From the NCBI RefSeq assembly GCF_008629685.1, contig NZ_VWSF01000001.1, forward strand, positions 372,001 through 436,000: a stretch of DNA of 64,000 bases, given 5' to 3'. Under the pieces are notes generated by a model. That model searched no databases. It saw only the letters and a program-made list of their open reading frames with translations, and was not told the DNA's origin. A program made the position numbers and the translations under genes. Source of the stretch: Adhaeribacter rhizoryzae. Its GTDB lineage: Bacteria; Bacteroidota; Bacteroidia; Cytophagales; Hymenobacteraceae. The first letter of the stretch is position 1. Every line of letters begins with the position of its first letter. Positions 53,687 to 57,690 of the stretch are shown here, one piece after another.

Positions 53687-54347
53687 AAGTGGGTAGCTAA
53701 AAATTGTAGGATTTAAATATAAATGATATAAATTTTTAATGCAAGTCTGCTGGTTGCATACCGCTTTGTATTTTATACCAGAATGAATTATGGCGTTTAA
53801 AACACGAGAAAAGCGGATTTCGCAACTCCTTCGTTCCGAAATAATTTTATTTGTAGTGTGGTAATCAGTTACTTTTAAAATATTTCAGATTCTGCAACAT
53901 ACCCAGGTCTTGTTGTGTCAGGGGAATCTACCTTGTTATCTGGTTCTGTATTAAGCGCAGCGTTAACTTGAACCTAAAATATTTGCTGGTTTTTAACTGT
54001 CAGGCTGTCCAAAAATTCCTTTTACCTGTACCCACCAGCGCAAAGCTGACGAAAGGTGCTGTGAAATTTTCTATATTATTCCTTAGCCGGACGGCCACAA
54101 TGATAACACCTGACACGGCAGAAATATTAAAACGGAAAGGCATTCACGCAGCTACACTTTTTACCATTCATATAATAACGTTCAGTTTTTGATTAATCGG
54201 GCTTAGATAATACTATTTTTAGAGGTAAATACTTAAACAGGTAAAGAAAAATACTTAAAATAATTAAATTTTATACAGCTCATTTGGTGAGTAAATTATA
54301 CATTAAAATATTATAATTATATTAGAACCAATTTTAGCGGATTACAA
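53687..54347. other. Gene-free stretch containing a REP half-site
   Basis: About 660 bp with no supportable gene. The only recognised feature is a partial RAYT-associated repeat at 54101-54122. The sequence just before the lipoprotein gene is very AT-rich. Confidence 0.5.
54101..54122 (-). repeat. REP copy A (half-site)
   Basis: On the minus strand this reads TTCTGCCGTGTCAGGTGTTA followed by TC, the conserved 5' tag, first arm and loop of the RAYT-linked palindrome. The second arm is not preserved. Confidence 0.75.
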
Positions 54348-54959
54348 ATGAGAAAATATTTATCGGTTCTGATTATAGTTATAATAATTGGTTTTGCTTT
54401 AGGGTGTGAAAAACAAGAAAAAACAATTTATAACAGCACCGTAACTTACGAAGCAACATGCCTGGCTGGTTATGAGGGCAAGGCTGTAACCAAAACAGAA
54501 GAAGCAACATCAACCATAAGCCAGCAAGATGCAGAAGAAAAAGCGTTATTAGCTGCCAAAGAGGCCGCCGAAGCAGAATTGGTATGCAACCAAATTGTTG
54601 AAGAAAATACTACGGGGGCGGGAACTACTTCGGGTAGCACCACCGGAGGGTCCACATCTGGTACTACTGCGGGCACCACACCTGGTGGTAATAATAATGG
54701 CAATAACGGTAATGGTAACGGCAATGGAAATAATGGTAACGGGAATGGAACAACTTCTGGTAGTACTACCGGCGGAACAACATCGGGTACCACATCCGGA
54801 ACAACCACTGGCGGAACAACCAGTGGTAATAATGGCAATGGTAATAGTGGGAACGGCAATAGCGGTAATAATGGCAATGGAGGTAATGGAAATGGCAATA
54901 ATGGTAACGGTAATAGCGGGAATGGGAATAATGGTAATAACGGGAAGGGCAAAGGCTAA
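54348..54959 (+). CDS. Lipoprotein with DUF5977-like segment and Gly/Asn/Thr-rich tail
   Basis: A 203-residue lipoprotein (lipobox FALGC, Cys20). Residues ~27-82 have the pattern of DUF5977-type units of Bacteroidota surface proteins (TCLAGYEGKAVTKTEEATST, then ISQQDAEEKALLAAKEAA and a final Cys). From about residue 88 to the end it is low complexity, first Thr/Ser/Gly (TTSGSTTGG units), then alternating Asn/Gly blocks, closing with GKGKG. The repetitive DNA of the tail is prone to length change. Its likely role is a flexible surface-exposed protein. It lies between REP copies A and B. Confidence 0.75.
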   Translation: MRKYLSVLIIVIIIGFALGCEKQEKTIYNSTVTYEATCLAGYEGKAVTKTEEATSTISQQDAEEKALLAAKEAAEAELVCNQIVEENTTGAGTTSGSTTGGSTSGTTAGTTPGGNNNGNNGNGNGNGNNGNGNGTTSGSTTGGTTSGTTSGTTTGGTTSGNNGNGNSGNGNSGNNGNGGNGNGNNGNGNSGNGNNGNNGKGKG

Positions 54960-55171
54960 ACATCTGATACTACTGTTGGAACAACAACTGTAAGTGCTTA
55001 TGCCTCAACTCTGTTTATTATCTGTACTCCTAACCTTCAAAGTTGTAAATTATAACCATTAATTGCTATGGCAGGTGCTACCTCTAACCAAATTAAAAAA
55101 GCATAGTATATTAATTGCCCTTCACAACATCCAATCTCAATCTTTAAGCTAACCTTAATTCTTCGGCTATT

Positions 55172-55202
55172 TCTGCCGTGTCAGGTGTTATCGCCTGATA
55201 CC
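55172..55202 (+). repeat. REP copy B
   Basis: Tag TTCTGCC, then GTGTCAGGTG, loop TTAT and CGCCTGATAC. Two of the ten stem pairs are G.T wobbles, so the hairpin is kept in single-stranded form. It lies 46 bp upstream of the RAYT start codon. Confidence 0.85.
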
Positions 55203-55248
55203 AATCCTAACCGGCTGGCGTAATATTCTTAACTGAACTAAGTCTGCC

Positions 55249-55764
55249 ATGATAACCGAACATCCGCAATTCTTCACGGCCACCATTCTGGAATGGAAGC
55301 ATTTGTTAAAGCCGGATAAGTACAAGGATATTGTGATTGGCAGCCTGAAGTTTCTGGTACAGCACGAGCGTATTTTCTTGTATGGTTTTGTCTTGATGCC
55401 CAACCACATTCATGTAATTTGGCAGATGCGGGAGCATGTAAAGAGCGCCGATGTACAAAGAGATTTCCTGAAGTATACTGCCCAGCAAACTAAGTTCGAT
55501 TTGCAGCAAAACCACCCTGCTGTGCTGGAGCGGTTCCGGGTTAAGGTGAAAGACCGCTCGTACCAGATATGGGAGCATCGGCCTTTGTCCGTTCCGTTGT
55601 GGTCAACTAAAGTACTGGAGCAGAAACTAGATTATATCCACCGGAATCCGGTGCAGGAAAAATGGCAGTTGGTGGACTTGCCGGAAAATTACTACTACTC
55701 TAGTGCGAGATTTTATTTATTAAATGTTGATGATTGGGGATTTATTACGCATTATGGCGAGTGA
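55249..55764 (+). CDS. REP-associated tyrosine transposase (RAYT, IS200-like/TnpA_REP)
   Basis: A 171-residue single-strand DNA transposase of the Y1 HUH family. The metal-binding His-x-His is in FVLMPNHIHVIWQM (His53, His55), and the catalytic tyrosine is probably Tyr129 in EQKLDYIHRNPV, which is the RAYT signature. Such enzymes act on REP hairpins and are usually single-copy domesticated elements that are not bounded by IS ends. Here REP copies B and C flank the gene in inverted orientation and copy C begins right after the stop codon. The protein appears full length with its active-site residues intact. Confidence 0.92.
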   Translation: MITEHPQFFTATILEWKHLLKPDKYKDIVIGSLKFLVQHERIFLYGFVLMPNHIHVIWQMREHVKSADVQRDFLKYTAQQTKFDLQQNHPAVLERFRVKVKDRSYQIWEHRPLSVPLWSTKVLEQKLDYIHRNPVQEKWQLVDLPENYYYSSARFYLLNVDDWGFITHYGE

Positions 55765-55793
55765 GTGTCAGGTGATAACACCTGACACGGCGG
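55765..55793 (-). repeat. REP copy C
   Basis: Perfect palindrome: GTGTCAGGTG, loop ATAA, CACCTGACAC (55765-55788), with the tag on the right side as GGCGG. It is opposite in orientation to copy B and begins at the base after the RAYT stop. Confidence 0.9.
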
Positions 55794-55836
55794 GAAAGTA
55801 ATTTTCTAATTTAATTCTTGTTAAAACTAAAATTAG

Positions 55837-56622
55837 ATGGATTTAAAGAGTGCGTATTTAGAGAATCTAGGAACACCTCCCAACAAGGTTTATAAGTTTT
55901 TTACATTAAATGAAAATTTTTATAAAACAATTTCAGGCCATTATTTTTGGTTGTCTAAACCTGCAGATTTTAATGATCCTTTCGATTGTAATCCACACCT
56001 TATAACTTTTAAACCTACTAAACAAGCAATAAAGCTTCTGTTTAAATCGCAACCTCTTGAAGGTACTAGGAGGCAAAGACGCAATACATTAAAAGGATAT
56101 TTTGCACAGCCTGAAAAAATTAAAAAGATTCATGATGAGTTAAAGTTCGAAATGAATAATGTGTGGGGGATTTGTTGTTTTACCAAGACTTATAAAAATA
56201 TACTGATGTGGTCGCATTATGCAAACAAGCACACTGGAGTTTGTTTGGGTTTTGAACCAGCTTTATCCCCAGATACATTTCTTATTTCTAATGTTAAATA
56301 CACCAACCATTTTCAACCTATGGACTATGGTTCCCAAAGGCAAGTTGCTTTATTTAATATGTTTATCACAAAATCAGAGGATTGGAAGTATGAAGAAGAA
56401 ATGAGGCTCGTGGGTCATCAAACTGGGAAATGGCCTTTCCCTAAGAAAGTTTTAAGAGAAGTAATATTTGGCTGCAAAACTTCTAAAGAAGACAAGAAGA
56501 AAGTATTAGAATTTTTGAAGGCAAATGGCTATGATAATGTAATTTATAAACAAGCCACAATGCGAGAAGATAGTTTTTTATTAGATTTTAAAGAACTAAA
56601 CGATATTGATCAAATTAATTAG
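55837..56622 (+). CDS. DUF2971 domain protein
   Basis: A 261-residue cytoplasmic protein with the DUF2971 pattern: VYKFFTLNENFYKTI, WLSKPADFNDPFDC, WGICCFTKTYKNILMWSHYA, HTGVCLGFE, then the EDWKYEEEMRLV and REVIFGCKTS segments. The function of the family is unknown; members are often found in accessory DNA. It is strongly AT-rich compared with housekeeping genes here and lies between REP copies C and D, so it may have arrived as a passenger. No toxin or nuclease motif is visible to me. Confidence 0.88.
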   Translation: MDLKSAYLENLGTPPNKVYKFFTLNENFYKTISGHYFWLSKPADFNDPFDCNPHLITFKPTKQAIKLLFKSQPLEGTRRQRRNTLKGYFAQPEKIKKIHDELKFEMNNVWGICCFTKTYKNILMWSHYANKHTGVCLGFEPALSPDTFLISNVKYTNHFQPMDYGSQRQVALFNMFITKSEDWKYEEEMRLVGHQTGKWPFPKKVLREVIFGCKTSKEDKKKVLEFLKANGYDNVIYKQATMREDSFLLDFKELNDIDQIN

Positions 56623-56641
56623 AATTATGGAAACTGCATAC

Positions 56642-56672
56642 TTCTGCCGTGTCAGGTGTTATCACCTGACAC
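56642..56672 (+). repeat. REP copy D
   Basis: Tag TTCTGCC, then GTGTCAGGTG, loop TTAT and CACCTGACAC (56649-56672), a perfect 10-bp stem. It lies 19 bp after the DUF2971 stop and is inverted relative to copy C. Confidence 0.9.
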
Positions 56673-57522: not shown

Positions 57523-57626
57523 GTTTTAGTCTTTAGTAATTAGCTGTTAGCTTCTGTAATGATTAAAACCGATAGTACGCAGAAGTTGGTAATATAAGTT
57601 TAAACCTAGTAACAGAAATTCATTTC

Positions 57627-57690
57627 TGTCATTCAGGAGGAACCTATTTAGCAGGCAGCCAAAAAGTTTGCTCCTGAATGACAGATGTGG
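57627..57690 (+). repeat. 64-bp palindromic repeat (copy 1)
   Basis: Starts TGTCATTCAGGAGG and ends CTCCTGAATGACAGATGTGG; the arms (57625-57639 with 57671-57685) are perfect complements. It is about 83% identical, counted by eye over 64 positions with no gaps, to the reverse complement of 59863-59926. Confidence 0.8.

Follow-up and report, generated by a model that had tools for sequence, protein, structure and literature searches.

A REP-flanked RAYT unit in Adhaeribacter rhizoryzae as a candidate single-strand transposon

Genes for REP-associated tyrosine transposases (RAYTs), named for the repetitive extragenic palindromic (REP) sequences beside them, are described in PMC8049555 as present in single copy and not self-copying. 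In the available sections of PMC6006769, the TnpA_Y1 subclass 2.6 is described from Bacteroidetes, with atypical flanking structures of which copies occur in the genome, so Bacteroidota REPtrons were already known. Here we describe a 64,000-nt stretch of Adhaeribacter rhizoryzae (contig NZ_VWSF01000001.1, positions 372,001 to 436,000; the window) in which a RAYT gene lies between two palindromes, B and C. We consider B–RAYT–C a likely REPtron, a single-strand transposon of the RAYT type that would be autonomous, could be copied whole and would yield, through deletion copies, elements resembling REP doublets forming hairpins (REPINs). In the portions available of the open-licence RAYT/REP literature (PMC3733652, PMC6006769, PMC3116915, PMC3686654, PMC12306157, PMC8049555 and PMC8266576), we came across neither this palindrome nor GCC-tagged REPs, and no REPINs that retain RAYT sequence. 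The genome of the window (6.5 Mb) is referred to as G000, and other members of the same genus as G001 to G007.

With respect to anatomy (Table 1), B and C are convergent 24-nt palindromes, each with a GCC tag on its outer side. That a Y1 HUH transposase of RAYT type lies between two oppositely oriented palindromes had been proposed in an earlier interpretation of the DNA letters (the sequence-only reading), and it is confirmed by the open reading frame (ORF) and by the palindrome positions. The protein matches NCBIfam NF047646, a model named 'REP-associated tyrosine transposase', at 65.2 bits (E 5.6e-18), which is short of the curated cut-off of 80. The same reading was correct that copy B keeps pairing through G.T wobbles, of which the sequence holds two, and that copy C begins directly after the RAYT stop codon, its hairpin starting at that first base. 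The TTCTGCC tag that it described is real, but looks like two parts, namely GCC and a degenerate pyrimidine run before it. The half palindrome A that it listed also exists, but adjoins the end of another dispersed repeat, R2, which weakens A as an independent REP. In total, the window holds the 17-mer core of the palindrome four times at 0 mismatches, whereas 0.10 occurrences are expected by chance at ≤3 mismatches and 0/100 shuffles reach four.

Table 1. Positions of the RAYT unit, its palindromes and neighbouring features in the window.
Feature	Position	Strand	Remarks
REP-RAYT-REP unit	55175..55791	+	617 bp, from the GCC of B through the GGC of C
Palindrome B	55171..55201	+	pyrimidine run TTCT, tag GCC, 10-bp stem, TTAT loop; GCC plus hairpin, 55175-55201
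RAYT, Y1 HUH transposase	55249..55764	+	171 aa; N52-H53-I54-H55; Y129 in YIHRNP
Palindrome C	55765..55795	-	hairpin, GGC tag, outer run GGAA; GCC plus hairpin, 55765-55791
Palindrome D	56642..56672	+	solitary full copy; GCC plus hairpin, 56646-56672; tail-to-tail with C
Half palindrome A	54093..54119	-	7 mismatches to consensus; adjoins end of another dispersed repeat
DUF2971 gene	55837..56622	+	between C and D; Pfam E 4.2e-8; PADLOC PDC-S31 E 7.8e-53
Gly/Asn-rich lipoprotein-like ORF	54348..54959	+	between A and B; neighbour; no Pfam match
Dispersed repeat R2	53936..54110		ends CTTAGCCTGACGGCTATGGT-like; separate element family

The RAYT protein gave no match in a Pfam scan at E 0.001 and none in a sequence search of the PDB. 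Its catalytic residues H53, H55 and Y129 are invariant across 11 homologues. An AlphaFold model of modest quality (mean pLDDT, the predicted local distance difference test score, 71.5; residues 136-171 under 50) is predicted to resemble most closely 4er8_A (E 9.9e-7, TM scores of 0.54/0.56), an E. coli-type RAYT with a bound REP hairpin, and ISDra2 and IS608 rank next in the fold search. For comparison, we used 80 RAYT loci, the best of 366 confirmed relatives; Bacteroidota account for nearly all of these loci, the rest being from a few Ignavibacteriota and one Chlorobiota. The distance from the HUH motif to the catalytic Tyr, 74 residues in the window's protein, is the same in 72/74 parsed relatives, and the tyrosine motif YIHRNP has counterparts in YIHNNP (31/74) and YIHQNP (4/74).

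In these relatives, REP-RAYT units appear from their alignments to have been duplicated whole, with homology that stops at the tags or within a few bases. Specifically, L303 and L312 of one assembly share 644 bp at 95.8% identity, starting at the tag and ending a few bases from the other tag, with REP-sized matches only beyond the unit, while L268 and L269 share 647 bp at 88% with partial unit copies nearby; both duplicates come from metagenome-assembled genomes (MAGs). Two units are also present in L317 (648 bp, 86.7%), and L282 holds a second unit of 563+96 bp (92-95%) with about 90 bp extra. Where duplicated units have differing flanks, their ends again lie mostly beside pyrimidine runs. 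A shortened version is seen at L268:2982-3278, an internal-deletion copy with its own flanks that matches the first 200 nt (90.5%) and the last 98 nt (86.7%) of the unit. When each of the 80 loci was scanned internally, L273 turned out to contain another copy of unit length, and L257, L262, L268 and L272 to contain partial copies with RAYT sequence in them; in several other loci the repetition is confined to the flanks. Within the genus, the window's unit is homologous to a copy in G006 over 55171-55798 (80%), with different neighbours on both sides and a RAYT that is 85% identical. The G006 unit lies on the opposite side of a ~96-bp stretch, where a rearrangement is indistinguishable from a second insertion. 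Spreading of the unit, as suggested by the sequence-only reading, appears to occur in relatives, as judged from whole-unit copies; G000 contains one intact copy of the window's RAYT, plus remnants.

The palindromes themselves are repeated in G000, as had been anticipated: the 17-mer core occurs at 17 places at ≤2 mismatches, compared with 0 for the reversed control. Eight of the 13 copies outside the window form four convergent, REPIN-like pairs with starts 103-174 bp apart, and the other five are singles or far apart. Two of these pairs carry pieces of RAYT sequence between their palindromes. In the C12:115 pair, the spacer preserves the RAYT 5′ leader plus ~28 codons, scoring 106 against a shuffle maximum of 28. 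The spacer of C23:65 contains HUH-motif DNA, a weak match (35, shuffle maximum 32) for which comparison with the G006 RAYT gave no signal. The syntenic intervals of G001 and G002 show no C12:115 pair. The C12:252 pair and its spacer recur in G006 at a different locus (80%), and the syntenic locus of G006 lacks the pair; of the two flanks of that G006 locus, G000 has just one, and no copy lies beside it. The same spacer test on eight convergent pairs from named loci was positive for five and negative for the three L280 pairs. Three of the positives (L252, L264 and one L282 pair) are trivial, as the reference overlapped the spacer, and two (L282, L317) are second units.

In terms of polarity, 87 of 135 perfect hairpins (not de-duplicated) carry GCC on one side, 0 on both and 48 on neither, so the tag, where present, marks one strand. 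Outside the GCC, positions -1 to -4 are 83-92% C/T against a background of 55%, and the signal fades from -5; the count covers 99 GCC-hairpin contexts from the window locus and related loci, retrieved by a search that required GCC. Such a pyrimidine run could reflect an insertion-site preference. At the relatives' RAYTs, flanks were evaluated for 76/80 loci, the remainder being too close to a contig end. Tagged palindromes in the expected orientation were detected upstream at 37/76 loci, downstream at 36/76 and on both sides at 24, compared with 13/76 and 9/76 in the wrong orientation and 1/76 for shuffled upstream flanks. The nearest palindrome within 300 bp is on the plus strand upstream in 33/34 cases and on the minus strand downstream in 32/34, a count from 35 loci with a usable consensus that is partly circular, as the consensus was taken from the right-way hairpin. 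Among 24 distinct palindromes from several genomes, both-side changes occur at stem pairs 1, 3 and 5, with 211/240 cells paired; we rejected this covariation as a test of the hairpin because the copies were found by their likeness to a palindromic consensus, and symmetric changes of this kind would equally fit a protein reading the palindrome as duplex.

As judged from these sequences, the stem goes with the RAYT clade. In a tree of 84 RAYT rows, the window's protein forms a clade with L244, L247 and L257 (support 98/87), all four carry the stem GTGTCAGGTG, and L247 and L257 belong to other, less close hosts. Moreover, a second RAYT of the group in G000 (contig C51, 63% identical) is flanked by a different stem, TGTTGGTG; the stem is therefore no genome-wide trait. 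The stem labels of three groups together require 6 changes on the tree, whereas shuffled labels average 9.6 and were as low in 0/200 shuffles, and 3 changes are needed for the 6 rows labelled GTGTCAGGTG taken by themselves; in this test the bootstrap is unsettled, 42/84 rows are without a stem label, and near-copies inflate such results. The L274 row is not in reading frame (branch length 10); it has the window's stem but was disregarded as evidence, and L277, with a variant of that stem, is placed elsewhere. TTGGTG stems also occur in Pontibacter, Rufibacter, Mucilaginibacter and others, and may represent an older type.

When searched as REP1 at ≤1 mismatch, the palindrome is present in 9/204 genomes of the family, and the reversed sequence used as control in 3/204. 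The comparison of genomes with and without the RAYT, which the sequence-only reading had offered as its refutation test, gave a mixed result: the two genomes with the cognate RAYT have 12 (G000) and 3 (G006) matches, but G001, G002 and G005, without it, also have 4, 2 and 1. No REP1 was found at this threshold in G003, G004 and G007, and 4/196 other family genomes have one match each. The sister stem GTTGTTGGTG is present as an exact match in 20/21 genomes with a related RAYT (degraded copies included) and in 17/183 without one, a count that rests on our own sorting and is partly circular, as the RAYT's own flanks contribute. At ≥3 copies in two genera, the figures are 12/20 and 6/46 (Fisher p 2e-4, uncorrected for phylogeny).

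The proposal that we favor builds on features legible in the DNA, namely the anatomy, the agreement between stem and RAYT clade, the unit duplicates and deletion copy in relatives, the RAYT pieces in two G000 pairs and the one-sided tag; cleavage, the hairpin substrate, the insertion preference and activity of the window's copy are its putative elements. The RAYT would recognize its own palindrome on the GCC-tagged strand, probably folded as a hairpin, cleave beside the tag and join the end into pyrimidine-rich DNA (YYYY|GCC). As the two unit ends are oppositely oriented, their tagged hairpins would be exposed on different strands. The whole unit could then be copied, and copies that lack the middle of the RAYT gene and keep both palindromes would become short REPIN-like elements needing RAYT in trans, with decay leaving solitary REPs such as D. 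A bolder extension, for which we regard the chances as just short of even, is that a Bacteroidota-wide RAYT clade was not domesticated: its members would be active, self-copying single-strand transposons with inverted ends, REPINs would arise repeatedly by internal deletion of the RAYT, and the autonomous ancestor postulated for REPINs would thereby persist.

Several observations weigh against the transposon proposal. Whole-unit copying is deduced from relatives at 55-61% protein identity, as G000 has one intact copy of this RAYT. For the duplicates in MAGs (L303/L312, L268/L269), mis-binning is possible, and the L303/L312 palindromes have a longer loop than those of the window; in L317 as in L282, both copies share a contig, at spacings of 1.2 and 2.8 kb, and could have arisen by local duplication. 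A single complete chromosome carries the copies L302 and L309, whose alignment of ~1.1 kb extends beyond the unit and shows no tag-to-tag boundary. A pair in Pontibacter sp. E15-1 (84%, 618 bp) was rejected as clean proof of transposition because it lies in two related type I restriction (hsdM/hsdR) loci, and a segmental duplication is possible there as well. No exact empty site was recovered at any locus compared (the window locus in G006 and G001; C12:252, C12:115 and C23:65 in relatives; G134 REPINs against 8 relatives), where flanking genes are conserved and the sequence between them has diverged too far for an insertion point to be assigned. G000 also has additional DNA past the pair at C12:252. 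In addition, the spacers of C12:252 and C18:75 in G000 and of one tested G002 pair contain no detectable RAYT sequence, the detector used found no upstream tagged hairpin in 39/76 loci, and flank matching links 34/76 true pairs compared with 58/300 draws of two different loci.

Part of this evidence is what a domesticated, immobile RAYT would leave behind, if REPINs alone moved and extra RAYTs came from local or segmental duplication by host recombination. The single intact copy in G000, the segmental look of the Pontibacter pair and the extended L302/L309 homology fit this account, as does the description of known RAYTs as vertically inherited in the accessible part of PMC8049555. We nevertheless think it unlikely, as the separate-contig copies (L303/L312, and L268/L269 with their partial units) share only REP-sized matches beyond the unit and RAYT remnants occur within REPIN pairs elsewhere. 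If the palindromes were transcription terminators, or RNA hairpins that have nothing to do with the RAYT, this would account for several of them lying just 3′ of genes, such as dnaE in G002 and G005; the one-sided tag, the stem/RAYT-clade match and the convergent pairs around the RAYT make this the least probable of the alternatives.

A further set of explanations concerns the genes beside the palindromes. C and D do enclose the DUF2971 gene in inverted orientation, as the sequence-only reading stated, but they are tail-to-tail, with their tags facing that gene, and not convergent as B and C are. At this locus there is a local gene difference between species: between C and D lies the DUF2971 gene (PDC-S31) in G000 but a 305-aa gene (PDC-S32) in G001, while G006 has neither gene and lacks D, which is present in G001. 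Were REPs to act as sites where homologous recombination swaps the DNA between palindromes, differing C–D genes would result, and the dnaE 3′ palindrome, with a TIR-like gene beside it in G000 and an Mrr-like gene in G002, would be a second case; 5/10 hand-picked neighbours of palindromes or RAYTs also have PADLOC matches. In function-blind samples, however, matches (E 0.001) were found for 1/10 slot proteins, 5/20 RAYT-adjacent and 3/20 distant ones, and we regard recombination as a rather doubtful account, if a less doubtful one than the immobile RAYT. The slots were 9 proteins from named loci and 1 from G000 contig C8; adjacent proteins were drawn from 117 and distant ones from a list of 102 or fewer. 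These small samples show no clear difference, two of the adjacent matches (L245, L251) represent the same hsdR situation, and several, in the adjacent and distant sets alike, are weak matches of a generic kind. With this control, a rule that defence genes are cargo is not supported. A composite transposon in which C and D jointly carry the DUF2971 gene could likewise appeal to their bounding one gene here and another in G001, yet is very improbable, given that RAYT units and the REPIN pairs described above are convergent and that tail-to-tail arrangements are common between separate elements (22/93 consecutive pairs) and need no special cause. The carriage of passenger genes proposed by the sequence-only reading is not supported: C and D bound different genes in two species and do not pair in a third, but the sampled genes show no clear defence-gene enrichment; the DUF2971 gene is best described as a neighbour, its role as cargo being not supported.

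Other observations were made in the vicinity of these elements. REPs 3′ of dnaE are located in G002 (L145:4538-5553), G000 (L136:8661-9586) and G005 (L146:4620-4646). In Pontibacter sp. E15-1 (G187), the RAYT units L241 and L242 sit in the two type I restriction loci beside PDC-S21 and SIR2-like genes. The repeat R2 (~175-190 bp, inverted ends CTTAGCCTGACGGCTATGGT) has copies in L195-L210 and L183 and is often found beside hairpin-like cores, for example GTTATCACC or CTTTTGACC. It could be a REPIN belonging to another RAYT, or an element that inserts into REP-like hairpins. By eye, a long palindromic repeat at ~57614-57690 resembles GTCATTCAGGAGGAA...TTCCTCCTGAATGAC, as at G000:C12:253569-253641. 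A 3.4-kb query holding this repeat gave 75 matches in G000 and 68 in G001, most of those listed falling on that stretch.

Palindrome-gene-palindrome units that are copied whole and shortened to gene-less elements would help to explain the origin of REP repeats, and a clade in which the whole unit and its deletion products occur side by side would make direct testing possible. Such a clade also provides an enzyme and its substrate, a simple hairpin whose tag is of another kind, and raises the question of how a single-strand transposase processes two inverted hairpins.

With respect to described systems, IS200/IS605 elements have both end hairpins on one strand. The unit described here resembles IS608 and ISDra2 of that family in fold, in hairpin ends and in what we take to be insertion beside a short preferred sequence, and differs in its inverted ends, B and C not lying on the same strand. 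TIRtrons (PMC3733652, in the part available) similarly have a RAYT-like gene between inverted repeats, which there are long terminal inverted repeats unrelated to REPs. An array in G000 resembles TIRtrons: contig C45:197500-208500 (L218) contains three RAYTs (DNA 82-85% identical) bounded by terminal inverted repeats of ~65-70 bp, while outside the RAYT genes there are two copies of ~277 bp that are 81% alike. Compared with subclass 2.6 (Bertels group 5), as far as the accessible text of PMC6006769 describes it, our unit shares the phylum, the NH[LIV]H and YIHxNP motifs, the absence of a GT[AG]G tag and flanking-structure copies elsewhere in the genome. It differs in an HUH-Y distance of 74 against a reported median of 82, in W-E where WQ is listed, and in palindromes that are strong here and weak there; its tyrosine motif reads YIHRNP where YIH[QN]NP is given for the subclass. 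Nearer to subclass 2.6 are eight further G000 RAYTs (L020-L027) with WQ and an HUH-Y distance of 81-84 (seven measured); six of the eight have SH.H in place of NH.H, and several have other flanking hairpins. Finally, the REPtron/RAYT (TnpA_REP) systems of Escherichia, Pseudomonas and Stenotrophomonas match the unit in the Y1 HUH protein, the inverted cognate REPs with copies elsewhere in the genome, the one-sided tag, the inverted doublets and the 4er8 fold. The foot of the hairpin here bears GCC in most copies and not a GTAG-type tag, and the hairpin has a 10-bp stem and a 4-nt loop, mostly perfect. REPtrons are described with a RAYT that is single-copy and is not transposed as a unit; here there is one intact copy, while RAYT-bearing units are multicopy in some relatives, several of which have whole-unit copies, and REPIN-like copies retain pieces of the RAYT gene.

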